Positions 19,339-32,570 of a DNA stretch of 64,000 nucleotides are shown one piece after another. The position numbers were made by a program, and so were the translations under genes. This DNA comes from Calothrix sp. NIES-4105. GTDB lineage: Bacteria > Cyanobacteriota > Cyanobacteriia > Cyanobacteriales > Nostocaceae. The DNA lies in the NCBI RefSeq assembly GCF_002368415.1, contig NZ_AP018290.1, positions 1,739,470 through 1,803,469 on the forward strand. Reading direction: 5' to 3'. Each line of letters begins with the position of its first letter. The first letter of the stretch is position 1. A model generated the notes under the pieces. It saw only the letters and a program-made list of their open reading frames with translations, was not told where the DNA came from and made no database searches.

Positions 19339-19369
19339 TGGCAACAGATGTAACGGATGTAACGGATGG
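19339..19369 (+). repeat. TGGCAAC/GTAACGGAT interspersed repeat, copy 1
   Basis: TGGCAACAGATG followed by two tandem GTAACGGAT units (19347-19369), just after the feoB stop. The same TGGCAAC...GATGTAACGGAT arrangement occurs at 29415-29446 and 32215-32245; the core GTAACGGAT also occurs at 28183-28195 and 32288-32299. Confidence 0.7.
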
Positions 19370-19384
19370 TATCTTTTATAAATT

Positions 19385-25635: not shown

Positions 25636-26601
25636 ATGTCAACGCAATATCCATTACCTCAAACCGTCGAAGTACAAAAAATACACCGTGCGAAACCAAA
25701 AATAAAATGGTTAGAACCATTATTATTACTGGCGCCATCAGGTATCTGGCTCATACTATTATTAGTACTACCAACATTAATCATATTTCAGTTAAGTTTA
25801 GTACCAGGCATTCGACCGGGAGATATAGTCAACCCAGGTGGCATCACAGATTATAACCAGTTTCTAGACATTCAAAACTGGCGTCAAATCTGGAGAGCAT
25901 TAACTACAAACTACATCCGTATCCTTGACCCAATTTATCTACAAGTAATCAGACGTTCATTCACATTCGCGCTTGGCACCACAGCAATTTGTTTGATTTT
26001 AGCCTTCCCTGTTGCTTACTGGATAGCTCAACTAGTGCCACAACGATGGCGAAATATTATCTTAATCGGATTTGTATTACCATTATGGACTTCTTCGTTA
26101 CTTCGCTCTTATGCCTGGATAACAATTTTGCGTCCTACAGGTTTACTCAACACTATATTAACTAGCTTCAGCTTACCCACACTTAATATACTTAACCAAA
26201 ATGCTGCTGTATACATTGGCATGACTTATAGTGCCTTACCTTATATGGTTTTAATTTTATATGCCTCACTCGAAAAATTAGATAAACGTCAACTCGAAGC
26301 AGCAGCAGACCTCGGCGCCAACCCCGTACAAGTATTTTACAAAGCCACATTACCACAAATAATAACCGGAGTAGCAGCAAGTTCATTCCTAGTATTTATC
26401 ACCACATTAGGAGATTTCGTCAACCCCGAACTACTGGGTGGCACCTCTAGTATGACAGGCGCGCGTTTAATATACAATCAATTTTTGGGAGCAACACAAA
26501 ACTGGGGTTTTGGGTCAGCTTTGAGCATGGCATTAATAATGATAGTAAGTATCGCCATCGCACTACTAATTAAATTTGGAGAAGCGGCGCCGAAACGTTA
26601 A
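25636..26601 (+). CDS. potB: Spermidine/putrescine ABC transporter permease
   Basis: A 321-residue permease with about six membrane segments. The EAA loop is visible as LEAAADLGANPVQVFYKATL (~220-239), followed by PQIITGVAASSFLVFITTLG and DFVNPELLGG. It forms the polyamine channel, normally with a PotC partner; no potC follows here. Instead an opposed nuclease cassette begins after a repeat at 26626. Bases 26050-26560 are duplicated in decayed form at 28205-28715. Confidence 0.9.
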   Translation: MSTQYPLPQTVEVQKIHRAKPKIKWLEPLLLLAPSGIWLILLLVLPTLIIFQLSLVPGIRPGDIVNPGGITDYNQFLDIQNWRQIWRALTTNYIRILDPIYLQVIRRSFTFALGTTAICLILAFPVAYWIAQLVPQRWRNIILIGFVLPLWTSSLLRSYAWITILRPTGLLNTILTSFSLPTLNILNQNAAVYIGMTYSALPYMVLILYASLEKLDKRQLEAAADLGANPVQVFYKATLPQIITGVAASSFLVFITTLGDFVNPELLGGTSSMTGARLIYNQFLGATQNWGFGSALSMALIMIVSIAIALLIKFGEAAPKR

Positions 26602-26625
26602 CAAACAAACATAAAAAATAAAATC

Positions 26626-26658
26626 GTAGGTTGGGTTAAGCGGAGCACGCAACCCAAC
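26626..26658. repeat. GTTGGGTT...AACCCAAC hairpin repeat
   Basis: GGTTGGGTT pairs with AACCCAAC around an AAGCGGAGCACGC loop. This is a common cyanobacterial intergenic palindrome; a longer relative lies at 59067-59108. It sits between the convergent potB and nuclease genes, where it may end transcription from both sides. Confidence 0.7.
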
Positions 26659-26673
26659 AAAGATATGGCAACC

Positions 26674-27210
26674 TTATAGGAAAAGTGTACCAGACACAAC
26701 AAGCTCACATAATTTTTCTTGAATTAATTGAACTAGTTGCTCTGTAGACACCAACGTTTCAATTTCAGCTTGTGTAATAACAACTAATTGCCTACCTTCA
26801 CTCAAAGCAACGCGAATAATTTCATGGGCAGCTTCTATTTTTTGTGAGTTTCCTGTGATTCCATTTGCTGCAATTAGGATGCCAAAAGTCTGCCCTCTTC
26901 TTTTAAGTTTTGAGTCAAACCAGTTAACTTCTTCACTACCAACAGGTTGTGACCAATTTTTACATTCTACCAGAATAATATTTTGAAGAAAGTAAAAGCC
27001 ATTTGCATCCATTCGGTTCCAAAATGCTATATCTATTTCTTCAGATCCAAAAGTATTTAACTTATTACGCTTGCCAGTGCTGACCCCTGGAACTTGTTCA
27101 AATATATAACAAACTAAGTCCTCTAAAGCACGCCCTTTTTCTACGGTAGTTTTTGCTTGCTGACCCGCTTCAAAATAATTTTTTATTATATCCTGAGAAA
27201 TTTCAGGCAT
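26674..27210 (-). CDS. Mrr-like restriction endonuclease-fold protein
   Basis: A 178-residue soluble protein with the PD-(D/E)XK core in order. An early Glu is in GRALEDLVCYIFE (~27-39), Asp in SEEIDIAFWN (~71-80), the E-x-K in ILVECKNW (~94-101), then SEEVNWFDSKLKRRG, and FGILIAANGITG (~127) as the last core strand. This matches Mrr-cat/Type IV restriction-like nucleases that cut DNA, often modified DNA. Its ATG overlaps the stop of the upstream gene by one base (TAATG), so the two are translationally coupled and probably form one functional unit. No methyltransferase is nearby. Target and trigger are not readable. Confidence 0.75.
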   Translation of the reverse strand: MPEISQDIIKNYFEAGQQAKTTVEKGRALEDLVCYIFEQVPGVSTGKRNKLNTFGSEEIDIAFWNRMDANGFYFLQNIILVECKNWSQPVGSEEVNWFDSKLKRRGQTFGILIAANGITGNSQKIEAAHEIIRVALSEGRQLVVITQAEIETLVSTEQLVQLIQEKLCELVVSGTLFL

Positions 27211-28112
27211 TACGGTAGTCTTCCATGAACTCGCGCATTACGTTCGGTACGAATAATTTGCCCGATACTTTCCTCGCGAAGGCGCCCTAAAAAGTCGTTT
27301 AAATCAAAGAAGTAGAGATTAAAATAAGATAATACAAATTGTAATGCTTCTCTTGATATATGTGAGGCAAAAATAATCACGACCCTTACATTACTTAGAT
27401 GAGCAAGGTGTAAAACTTGTTCAGCTACATACTTAGCCTGCATCTCTGTAGAAATTTCTCTTTTTACTTCAATGAGAATTGGATTTCCAAAATAAGGTTC
27501 TAACTCATCAATCCATACAGCAAAATCCGCATAAATATTAGAGTTATGCGTAGTTCGAGTTAGAACTCCACTTGCTTTAAACATCGTCTTAACAACATCT
27601 TCAACATTACACTCAAGGAGATTATCTCCAAGATCATTAAGTCTACCTAGTAAATCATCGGCTACACTACCAAGAGGTTTAGTCTTATCAAGCAAACGTT
27701 CTTCACTATTGTTATCGTAACGTGGTGCGTTAAGAATTTGCTCAATGGCAAAGCTAATTGCCTCACGATTACTAGGAGTACTTCTTATATATAGTAAGTC
27801 TTTGATATCCGTTGGAATTTCATACCCATCAGGCGCGATTATCAACACCTGTTTACCCAAAACTGAAGCGCAACCTAATTCAAAAAGCACGTTTGCACTT
27901 GAAGCTGCTGTGCCTAAAATAGCTATTACTAAATCCGCATTCTTAATACAATCTATAATTTTATCAGAAATTTTAACGGCGCCTGGATCAAATCGAGCCG
28001 GGTCTAGAAGATGAATATCATTCTCTTTTAATACTTCCAGTAATCCCGAAAAATCTGTACCAGCAGGAGCTGATAAAAAGCATCTTAATTGTTTAGTTTG
28101 AGTCGGCGCCAT
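27210..28112 (-). CDS. NDT/TIR-like domain fused to a PD-(D/E)XK nuclease-like domain
   Basis: 300 residues in two parts. Residues ~8-125 (CFLSAPAGTDFSGL, then ISDKIIDCIKNADLVIAILG, NVLFELGCASVLGKQVLIIA) resemble the nucleoside 2-deoxyribosyltransferase/TIR-like fold; the Glu in FELG sits where the NDT/TIR catalytic Glu is found. Residues ~150-300 resemble a restriction-endonuclease fold: DFAVWIDELEPYFGNPILIE followed by VKRE gives the D...E-x-K signature, and later strands are VRVVIIFASH and FNLYFFDLNDFL. Such sensor/NADase-nuclease fusions are typical of bacterial defence proteins. It is the first gene of a two-gene unit, transcribed opposite to potADB. I know no named system with this exact pair. 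Confidence 0.65.
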   Translation of the reverse strand: MAPTQTKQLRCFLSAPAGTDFSGLLEVLKENDIHLLDPARFDPGAVKISDKIIDCIKNADLVIAILGTAASSANVLFELGCASVLGKQVLIIAPDGYEIPTDIKDLLYIRSTPSNREAISFAIEQILNAPRYDNNSEERLLDKTKPLGSVADDLLGRLNDLGDNLLECNVEDVVKTMFKASGVLTRTTHNSNIYADFAVWIDELEPYFGNPILIEVKREISTEMQAKYVAEQVLHLAHLSNVRVVIIFASHISREALQFVLSYFNLYFFDLNDFLGRLREESIGQIIRTERNARVHGRLP

Positions 28113-28182
28113 TAATTAAAACAAGTAAGTGGTATTCTCATTGTAAGTTACTGAAGCTGATTGCAGCAAAAACGAATTAACT

Positions 28183-28195
28183 ATCCGTTACATCC
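28183..28195. repeat. ATCCGTTAC repeat at the edge of the potB duplicate
   Basis: ATCCGTTACATCC lies ten bases before homology to potB starts (28205). It is the reverse complement of the GATGTAACGGAT core found after feoB, alkB-like and ubiB-like genes, so a repeat marks the left boundary of the duplicated segment. Confidence 0.65.
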
Positions 28196-28204
28196 CTTCG
28201 GGTT

Positions 28205-28715
28205 CGCAACATTACTTTAATTGCATTTGTACTACCATTACGGACTTCTTCGTTACTTCGCTCTTACGATTGGATAACAATTTTGCGTCCCACAGGTTTA
28301 CTCAACAGCATATTAAACAGCTTTGGCTTACCTACACTTAATATAATTAACCAAAACACTGCTGTATATATAGGCATGACTTACAGCGCTTTACCTTACA
28401 TGGTTCTAATTTTATATGCCTGACTCGAAAAATTAGACAAACGTCAACTCGAAGCAGCAGCTGACCTCGGTGCCAATCCCGTACAAGTGTTCTATAAAGC
28501 AATATTACCTCAAATTATAACAGGAGTAGCAGCAAGTTCATTTTTAGTATTTATCACCACATTAGGAGATTTCGTCAACCCCGAACTACTTGGTGGTGCC
28601 TCTAGCATGACAGGCGCGGGTTTAATATACAATCAATTTTTAGGAGCAACACAAAACTGGGGTTTTGGGTCAGCTTTGAGTATGGCACTAATTAATGATA
28701 GTAAGTATTGCTATT
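28205..28715 (+). pseudogene. Decayed internal fragment of potB (duplicate)
   Basis: Bases 28205-28715 align with potB 26050-26560 at roughly 85-90 percent identity by eye, covering about half of the permease (from FVLPLW to the stretch after GFGSALSMALI). Both ends of the gene are missing. It carries an in-frame TGA at 28421-28423 (Ser codon TCA in potB) and a one-base insertion near 28690 that shifts the frame. The right end is fused directly to a truncated serine-hydrolase gene on the other strand. It forms a direct repeat with potB around the two nuclease genes. Confidence 0.9.
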
Positions 28716-29313
28716 CACCAGGTTGTCGAACTCGTGGCGGTAAGTTTTTTTCTACAAATTCTTCTAATGAAGGTAATTTTGACTGACAGCGATTTGCAGC
28801 TCCAATTGTCCATGCAACATCGAATCCATCGGTATGTGTCAGTAAATGAGCGGCGGTAAGAGGTTTAAATTTATGATTATCAATCTTAAATTTGTCAAGA
28901 TAATTATTTATATCTTGGTTTAAATCTAGCTTGCCTTGTTCAACAAGTTGCATTAATGCTGTTGTAGTAAAAACCTTAGAAATCGAGCCGATTCGGAAGA
29001 GTGTTTTATCCGGTATTACAGGCGCCTTGGTTTCAAGGTTGGCATAACCGTAACCTTTGGAGAAGAATATTTTACCATCTTTAACTAAAGTAAAAACGGC
29101 GCCAGGTATATTTGCAGGTGCAAGAGATGAGGTAAAGAATTTATCAATAAAAGCTTCTAACTCTTGAGAACTGCTTAAACCGAGTTGAGGAGCAAATGTC
29201 GCTAAATTAGGATTTGTGCTTCCAAGAGCAGAACAGGCAAGTGTAGGAAATAAAACAATAAGGATAGTTAGAAAAGTAAAGCAGACTAGTTTGAACTGGT
29301 TAATTATACTTTT
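28711..29313 (-). pseudogene. Truncated serine hydrolase/beta-lactamase-family lipoprotein
   Basis: The frame is open on the minus strand from 29313 to the TAG at 28711, but I find no ATG, GTG or TTG at its 5' end. It encodes a lipoprotein-like start (TILIVLFPTLACSALG, lipobox LAC). It continues with IPGAVFTLVKDGKIFFSKG, then the catalytic SxxK motif within LFRIGSISKVFTTTALMQLV, and HLLTHTDGFD. It stops at LPPRVRQPGE exactly where the YxN motif should follow. Class C beta-lactamase-like proteins are ~350-500 residues, so more than half is lost at the junction with the potB fragment. It is not expected to be functional. Confidence 0.8.
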
Positions 29314-29414
29314 CTACACTGTTTCTAAGAAATAACACTGTATCCAAATTTCATAGTATTTACTTAGATACAGGAAAAATTTTGTTTAAAAAATATCCTG
29401 TATACGAATCAACT

Positions 29415-29446
29415 ATCCGTTACATCCGTTTTAATCCGTTGCCAAT
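29415..29446 (-). repeat. TGGCAAC/GTAACGGAT interspersed repeat, copy 2
   Basis: On the minus strand it reads TTGGCAACGGATTAAAACGG then ATGTAACGGAT. It contains the last six codons and the stop of the AlkB-like gene (G-N-G-L-K-R-M then TAA), so the repeat supplies the C-terminus of that protein. Confidence 0.7.
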
Positions 29447-30034
29447 GGCATTAACATGCGGTCGAAAAGTCAAGTTAATGCGTTCTCCTACAGGTTGAGT
29501 AGTTTTAGGTAGTTGATGAAACCAGGTTTCTTGACACCCAGGATGCATTAATAATAAGCTGCCGTGTTCTAACCATATATCTACTGGTTTACCTTTTTTT
29601 CCTTGTCGCATTTGAAATTTACGCTTTTGTCCCAGAGTTATTGATGCGATAGCAGGAGATTTACCTAGGCTTTTTTCATTATCTGCGTGCCAACCATTAG
29701 AGTCGCGACCGTCTCGATAACGGTTACATAGTACTATATGGAATGGGTAGCCTGTGGTTGATTCTATGTGTAACCGCAGTTGTTGAAGTTGCTCTGTCCA
29801 AGGTACTGGCTGTAATAATACTGATTTTGAGTAGAGGTAATCACATCCTTCATCCCCGTACATACATTCAAGTCGCGGAACGGGCATGGTTTTACCTATA
29901 ATTTTTATAGTGTTTTGGCGCCATTTTAGGGTTTGGCAGTGTTTGTATAATTCGTCTGCTTGAGTTGGTGTTAGAAAGTTAGGTGTGTATTCGATTGGTG
30001 GGTCAGCTTCGGAGCGTATTTCAGATATGACCAT
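29420..30034 (-). CDS. AlkB-like 2-oxoglutarate/Fe(II) dioxygenase
   Basis: 204 residues from ATG 30034 (MVISEIRSEADPP). The frame extends upstream to 30136, but that part is Ile/Leu-rich and unlike the family. The double-stranded beta-helix motifs are present: HADNEKSLG (H-x-D iron ligands, ~131), RKFQMR, HPGCQETWFHQLP (distal His, ~179) and RINLTFR (2-oxoglutarate-binding Arg and substrate-side Arg, near the C-terminus). It is closest in form to the AlkB/ALKBH2-3 type that removes alkyl lesions from nucleic acid bases. The last residues are encoded by an interspersed repeat. Confidence 0.87.
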   Translation of the reverse strand: MVISEIRSEADPPIEYTPNFLTPTQADELYKHCQTLKWRQNTIKIIGKTMPVPRLECMYGDEGCDYLYSKSVLLQPVPWTEQLQQLRLHIESTTGYPFHIVLCNRYRDGRDSNGWHADNEKSLGKSPAIASITLGQKRKFQMRQGKKGKPVDIWLEHGSLLLMHPGCQETWFHQLPKTTQPVGERINLTFRPHVNAIGNGLKRM

Positions 30035-32227: not shown

Positions 32228-32299
32228 AACTGATGTAACGGATGGGTTATTTTAGATAACAGGATGAGTGTTTGTAACCAATAAATTATCCGTTACATC
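32215..32299 (+). repeat. TGGCAAC/GTAACGGAT interspersed repeat, copy 3, with inverted partner
   Basis: TGGCAACAGATAAAAC then TGATGTAACGGATGG spans 32215-32245 and includes the ubiB-like stop. The exact complement of GATGTAACGGAT (32232-32243) recurs at 32288-32299, so the transcript end can fold into a hairpin with a 44-base loop. The rest of the 32228-32570 spacer shows no gene. Confidence 0.7.
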
Positions 32300-32570
32300 C
32301 GCTATAAAGGGATTGTAAACCGATTTAGTGACTTGCATAATTAATTAACACATTGTGTTATTAATATGCCCAAACAGTAGACAGTTGTAACATCTACTTT
32401 CAAAAGGCGCCTAACAAATCTATTGCCTCACTCCTGACTATTGAGTATTGTATTATTTTTCACAAAAACAATTGCTACACCGATTGATAGTAAACTGTTG
32501 TTATAGTGGCATCATCGTGTCCAAAAAAATCTTGAATTTTTGACGTTTAGCTTTTAAACAGGAGTCCTGC

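Follow-up and report, generated by a model that had tools for sequence, protein, structure and literature searches.

A mobile two-gene cassette beside potB in Calothrix sp. NIES-4105, pairing an NDT/TIR-like nuclease fusion with an Mrr-type nuclease, as a candidate defence module

The stretch of 64,000 nucleotides analysed here (the window; Calothrix sp. NIES-4105, genome of 12.0 Mb, contig NZ_AP018290.1, positions 1,739,470 to 1,803,469) carries, next to a potB-like permease gene, a cassette of two predicted nuclease genes that we consider as a candidate defence module. The intact potB (25636..26601, plus strand; open reading frame [ORF] with Pfam BPD_transp_1 at 3.5e-12) is followed on the minus strand by P2 (26674..27210), which would encode an Mrr-type PD-(D/E)XK nuclease of 178 amino acids, and by P1 (27210..28112), whose ORF, Pfam matches and homologues point to a 300-residue protein with an NDT/TIR-like domain fused to a second PD-(D/E)XK domain. 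The P1 stop and the P2 start overlap in TAATG at 27210. Beyond P1 lies a broken partial copy of potB (28205..28715, plus strand) without both gene ends, 89.0% identical to potB over its whole length, with one in-frame stop and, near the 3' end, one extra base. Bases 26050-26349 of potB recur at 28205-28504 with 87% ungapped identity and bases 26537-26558 at 28693-28714 with 91%, and we judge a repeat of some 500 bp at 89% to be far beyond chance. A first-pass annotation had described the repeat, the two minus-strand ORFs between its copies and the TAATG overlap, all of which we reproduced at the same positions. No methyltransferase gene was seen among the ORFs between potB and the oxygenase gene downstream (judged by eye), promoters and terminators predicted in the cassette were no more frequent than in shuffles, and Rfam at gathering threshold gave no match in the window.

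P2 matches Mrr_cat (PF04471) above the Pfam cut-off (3.8e-9), and at E<=1 it matches only this model and, weakly, NERD, with no Mrr_N-type DNA-binding domain. Its AlphaFold model is confident, with a predicted local distance difference test score (pLDDT) of 92.9. The putative active site consists of E30 (codon 27121-27123), D60 (27031-27033), E82 (26965-26967) and K84 (26959-26961), all on the minus strand and invariant in 30/30 sequences, as are nine further positions that had been picked because they were already invariant in an earlier alignment. P2-like Mrr domains also end longer proteins with other N-terminal parts (loci L041-L081, e.g., L044, L056 and L075), such as weak TPR, a stretch like the P1 nuclease profile or a response regulator, and together these may form a broader family of sensor-plus-Mrr proteins.

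The C-terminal part of P1 (approximately residues 149-297, 27222..27668, minus strand) has the candidate residues D196 and E215-x-K217, of which D196 and E215 are kept in 27/27 homologues, and Mrr_cat reaches its Pfam cut-off there (3.4e-4). By profile alignment this domain and P2 are homologous PD-(D/E)XK domains (hhalign probability 98.3, E 1.1e-14). The homology points to an old duplication and leads us to infer a heteromeric nuclease. The domain ends in RNxxxHG, and an RNxxxH motif at the very C-terminus (window ~27225-27242) occurs in 19 of the 27 homologues. We did not adopt a HEPN reading of it, since in the model the motif sits on the last helix (283-296), beyond the nuclease core.

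The N-terminal domain of P1 (approximately residues 9-130, 27723..28088, minus strand) appears to belong to the TIR-DrHyd clade. In Pfam, Nuc_deoxyrib_tr scores just under its cut-off (6e-6), and the whole protein matches at E<=1 only NDT, TIR and Mrr_cat models, with no Mrr_N-type DNA-binding domain. A profile of 23 P1 homologues matches in the PDB NDT (1.2e-9), Rcl/DNPH1 (1.3e-6) and BcmB (2e-5), then MilB more weakly (7e-4 and weaker) and Cap12 only at 0.03, and Foldseek matches of the P1 structure model (pLDDT 86, predicted template modelling score [pTM] 0.65) include TIR-1, MilB, NDT, SARM1 and DNPH1. TIR_2 clears its Pfam cut-off in one homologue (L016). Residues D60 and E78 align with the conserved Asp and Glu of the NDT/DrHyd family, E78 (codon 27879-27881, minus strand) being the putative nucleophile, and P1 shows the fold with a catalytic Glu in an E-x-G-x-A helix by which that family is recognized. 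The surrounding S-x-N-V-x-F-E-x-G stretch resembles, we assume, that of Cap12-type TIR domains. Judging from the models, then, this is an NDT/TIR-like fold with the family glutamate, lying between NDT and TIR. The first-pass domain calls (NDT/TIR-like plus PD-(D/E)XK for P1, Mrr-like for P2) were thus upheld by Pfam, profile, structure-model and fold searches, including the catalytic Glu and E-x-K sites that a fold search was expected to reveal.

The two proteins differ in how constant their parts are. Among the 26 homologues with the domain, the residue equivalent to E78 is Glu in 23 and Gln in three (L039, L040 and L169), and in a contig from IMG/VR (L168, 2533-4531) pentapeptide repeats (Pfam 6.7e-21) take the place of the NDT domain, the two nucleases being retained. 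From these few cases the nuclease pair would be the constant core and the N-terminal domain a variable, sensor-like part; we see the former as the working part because the P2 site is invariant and the NDT glutamate, or the entire domain, varies.

A scan of a species-genome collection with the P2 alignment gave 69 loci, the closest of which (L014-L040, n=27, or 25 without L027 and L028, which are contigs of the L026 genome) carry P1 immediately upstream of P2 in every case (27/27, 25 distinct). L015, L018 and L031 have an interrupted or truncated P1, and from the P1 stop to the aligned P2 start there are -14 to +3 nucleotides in all closest loci but L015. The record titles place these loci in eight bacterial phyla, namely Cyanobacteria, Pseudomonadota, Actinomycetota, Bacteroidota, Bacillota, Acidobacteriota, Verrucomicrobiota and Methylomirabilota (the phyla of the named genera being those we take them to belong to), the rest being metagenome-assembled genomes labelled Nanoarchaeota and Helicobacter pylori, labels on which we do not rely, and one unplaced bacterium. 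Within the window's order, P1 matches two of 291 genomes, including the window's own, and P2 matches eight; the genes lie side by side in both P1-matching genomes and the other six P2 matches are weaker (<=39% identity). One Xenococcaceae cyanobacterium of the order (G198) supplied both L002 and L014, which are the same contig of 7,999 bases. Plasmid records gave three P1 matches, all among the five that match P2 and all paired (3/3), and phage records gave none for P1, one partial match for P2 and none for the P2 of L169. Across loci the P1 and P2 distances are correlated (r=0.846, n=26), also within one clade (r=0.704, n=19), in each case with 0/5000 permutations as high. On these comparisons P1 and P2 form a conserved unit, as had been proposed from the shared stop-start, and the homologues of both do co-occur. 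In the phylum at large the P1 profile matches 16/386 genomes, beyond the window's mainly as NDT-like stretches in differently built proteins.

The history of the locus was followed in the window genome and six congeners (G291-G296). Each congener has one match to potB (6/6), and the half-copy is found only in the window genome among the seven. An empty site, sought in relatives as the first-pass annotation had recommended, is present in G291, where potB runs directly into a 2OG-Fe(II) oxygenase gene (Pfam-named): window 26603 corresponds to L118:4925 and window 29449 to L118:4927, leaving 26604..29448 absent. A different set of genes follows potB in G292-G296, including DUF948 and YtxH in the genomes checked, and the oxygenase block is elsewhere. 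Beside its only potB, G295 retains a remnant in which P1 residues 1-167 (78%) run into the C-terminal end of P2 (22 residues, 82%), and G293 has a 94-bp cassette trace (80%) at potB. No cassette match was found at potB in G291, G292, G294 or G296, G292 having a weak NDT-like match elsewhere in its genome (3.5e-4). The cassette is therefore present, decayed or absent beside potB among congeners. Differences between the G295 remnant and the window P1 fall at codon positions 19/16/48, and so both evolved under coding constraint. The cassette either had its place at potB already in an ancestor of these species or arrived there more than once, and it decays.

As to how it arrived, the earlier suggestion of recombination between, or target duplication of, potB stood in its first half only. 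The half-copy differs from intact potB at codon positions 10/7/39, mostly third, so that for most of its divergence it was probably a functional gene, disrupted only late; we take it to stem from recombination of diverged potB alleles and not from duplication upon insertion. A target-site duplication was rejected, as transposon target duplications are short and the half-copy is of ~510 bp, its 10/7/39 pattern is like that of inter-species alleles and the G295 remnant stands at a single potB. In a tree on ~510 bp the half-copy groups with potB of G291 (support 0.95, long branches), which would fit an allele of the empty-site kind, although we rest no weight on it. That potC is missing here, also reported in the first-pass annotation, fits what we see, but its link to the cassette was not supported: none of the 10 ORFs checked downstream of potB in the congeners G291, G294 and G295 matches a permease domain, and no potC was seen by eye in the next ORFs of G292, G293, G296 and the window, no potC profile search having been run.

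Two other features adjoin the half-copy. A gene remnant of the beta-lactamase family of serine hydrolases (PF00144; 28711..28953, minus strand; 1.2e-7 over 46 residues) lies directly next to it, and a short dispersed repeat with a CTATCCGTTACATCC core, of which there are 102 exact copies in the window genome (reversed control, 0), brackets the block made of the two. In the window, this repeat or related copies of it are at 28172-28198, 29404-29430, 19355-19370 and 32285-32300, and they may be a recombination substrate.

Outside this genus the pair travels on mobile elements. It is carried on Agrobacterium conjugative plasmids and on an IMG/VR (predicted viral) contig (L169), and two E. coli genomes out of the 5,426 searched contain a 91.9%-identical relative of L169, a count from a DNA search with one relative as query, which more diverged copies would escape. 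These E. coli copies (for example L171:15002-16465), whose annotation goes no further than hypothetical protein and restriction endonuclease, lie near conjugation (trb) genes and, in A65EC, an integrase as well. Taken together, the comparisons indicate a genuine two-gene module that is mobile and belongs to no named type. Around the loci we found 199 ORFs, 139 of them within 3.3 kb, and scanned 135 (omitting L014:2-370, L015:8578-8973, L019:10690-16527 and L037:3-527); among the matches listed, integrase domains occur in at least five and resolvase domains in at least three, and a D12 methyltransferase model in one of the 135, a figure covering the 25 listed of 111 families, so that others are possible. 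Named defence systems adjoin the pair at four loci: Hachiman in L011 (HamA 3.9e-145, HamB E=0), Gabija in Kangiella (L040; GajA 3e-241, GajB 1.8e-221) and in Streptomyces (L025; 8.4e-190, 6.5e-148), and, ~2.2 kb from the cassette in Allomuricauda (L035), a short-Argonaute pair (pAgo_I 2.2e-196, Aga_TIR 8e-135) which we take to be of the SPARTA type. A dGTPase-type gene (L036:5506-6843; PADLOC 1.6e-108) is immediately upstream of the pair in Bacillus.

No model of NCBIfam matches P1 or P2, and PADLOC-DB 2.0.0 gives no full-length match; its best, the candidates PDC-S35 (P1, E 0.00085) and PDC-S02 (P2, E 0.0016), are a weak partial likeness over only 60 and 83 residues and do not amount to membership. 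This agrees with the initial impression that no named system has exactly this pair, for which we found no name in the open-licence literature, a mention in Burroughs 2015 (Nucleic Acids Research, NAR) being possible. With Mrr/Mrr_cat endonucleases the cassette shares the E, D, ExK catalytic domain, in P2 and, more divergent, in P1, but it is made of two genes, has an NDT/TIR-like domain attached and no matched N-terminal DNA-binding domain, whereas Mrr type IV enzymes presumably have one of the Mrr_N type. Unlike in type II restriction-modification, no methyltransferase gene is next to the nucleases, and unlike the NDT/DrHyd hydrolases (NDT, DNPH1/Rcl, MilB and BcmB), which the P1 domain resembles by profile and fold, that domain is fused to a nuclease. 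Carabias reportedly described in 2024 the retron-Eco1 NDT-like effector in NAD+-hydrolysing filaments. A defence setting for an NDT-like domain in retron-Eco1-type systems is also given in a passage of PMC12548924; unlike in retrons, neither cassette ORF matches a reverse transcriptase and the Rfam scan was empty. The TIR domains of Thoeris, Cap12/TIR-STING CBASS and SPARTA are placed by a passage of PMC9503650 in the same clade of Rossmann-like domains as the P1 domain, but the cassette has no SIR2-SLOG, STING or Argonaute gene and its partner is a second nuclease. Thoeris in particular, which joins a ThsB TIR protein to a ThsA effector (SIR2-SLOG or other), finds no counterpart, the two ORFs having no SIR2, SLOG or Macro match and the PADLOC scan no Thoeris model.

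We propose, at about an even chance, that the P1 and P2 proteins make up, as its two subunits, a single conditional deoxyribonuclease (DNase), sensor-gated and methylase-free, directed against phages or other incoming DNA. Their paired nuclease domains would assemble as a heteromer, and the N-terminal P1 domain would bind, and perhaps cleave, a nucleotide altered in level or chemistry on infection; this event would license the nuclease, which would cut the invader DNA or, as abortive infection, all DNA. Since the cassette is without a methyltransferase gene, self-protection would come from conditional activation and not from methylation. A very unlikely, more specific version is a restriction system without methylase whose NDT-fold domain senses phage-altered nucleotides such as hydroxymethylated monophosphates, on which its relatives of solved structure, DNPH1 and MilB, act. 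Such sensing would license a heteromeric pair of paralogous nucleases, a core onto which other N-terminal sensors could be plugged.

Several results weigh against this proposal. The pairing counts derive from searches seeded with paired sequences, and therefore the 27/27 speaks for close P2 relatives only; P1 was not matched at 0.01 in the other 42 of the 69 P2-like loci, 38 of which carry the P2-like domain within an ORF of at least 250 amino acids, and 16 fetched P1-profile places outside the window genome have no P2 match within ~1.5 kb. In P1, K217 is kept in 24/27 homologues and is Arg in three (L023, L011 and L012), and the PDB fold matches of P2 are weak (RPB5 4e-4, restriction enzyme EcoT38I 1.3e-3). 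The named neighbouring systems came from 20 hand-picked neighbours, of which 11 matched (4/10 at 1e-20 and 7/10 at 1e-10) and 9/20 did not. A control of 129 ORFs from 20 arbitrarily chosen cyanobacterial places (of which 125 were scanned, leaving out four from L141 and L142), all cyanobacterial and not taxon-matched to the neighbours, gave at 1e-10 matches to 125 PADLOC families, vs. 155 families for the 135 neighbours, the top 25 families being listed per scan, and its matches include DISARM, PsyrTA and Gabija-type genes. Because control ORFs also match many PADLOC models, we claim no enrichment of defence genes.

The alternative that survives best, although we find it rather unlikely, makes the N-terminal domain the effector, i.e., a TIR/NDT-type NAD+ or nucleotide hydrolase that would shut down the cell, with P1-C and P2 detecting or processing invader DNA and thereby activating it. 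The fold and glutamate of the TIR-DrHyd clade, the TIR_2 match of L016 and the retron-Eco1 precedent (gene label NDT, in a passage of PMC12548924) speak for it, but an effector whose glutamate is Gln in 3/26 homologues and whose whole domain is replaced in L168, next to a P2 site invariant in 30/30, fits it poorly. Also unlikely is a type IV-like system, in which two nucleases would cut modified phage DNA and the NDT-like domain would help to recognize the modification. P2 is of Mrr type, the cassette has no methyltransferase, and among its nearest relatives of solved structure the N-terminal domain has the hydroxymethyl-dUMP (hmdUMP) hydrolase DNPH1 and the hydroxymethyl-CMP (hmCMP) hydrolase MilB, the pocket of the latter being said in a passage of PMC4081090 to resemble that of 5-methylcytosine (5mC)-binding proteins; however, DNPH1 and MilB act on free nucleotides, and neither P1 nor P2 matches an Mrr_N-type DNA-binding domain. 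A nuclease pair that is selfish or serves housekeeping (e.g., DNA repair or element maintenance) and rides on mobile elements would agree with the carriage on plasmids and integrative elements and with the lack of a shown enrichment over control, but its patchy presence (2/291 genomes of the order and, by DNA search, 2/5426 of E. coli), its decay within one genus and the multi-gene defence systems adjoining it in four loci make this distinctly unlikely.

If the proposal of a sensor-gated DNase is true, the pair would be a compact defence system found across several phyla and in E. coli, unmatched by the PADLOC and NCBIfam models tried, in which an NDT/TIR-like nucleotide-handling domain would gate a DNase rather than deplete NAD+ or make a messenger. 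Its sensor would be exchangeable and its two-nuclease core fixed, and the E. coli copies make the system directly testable.

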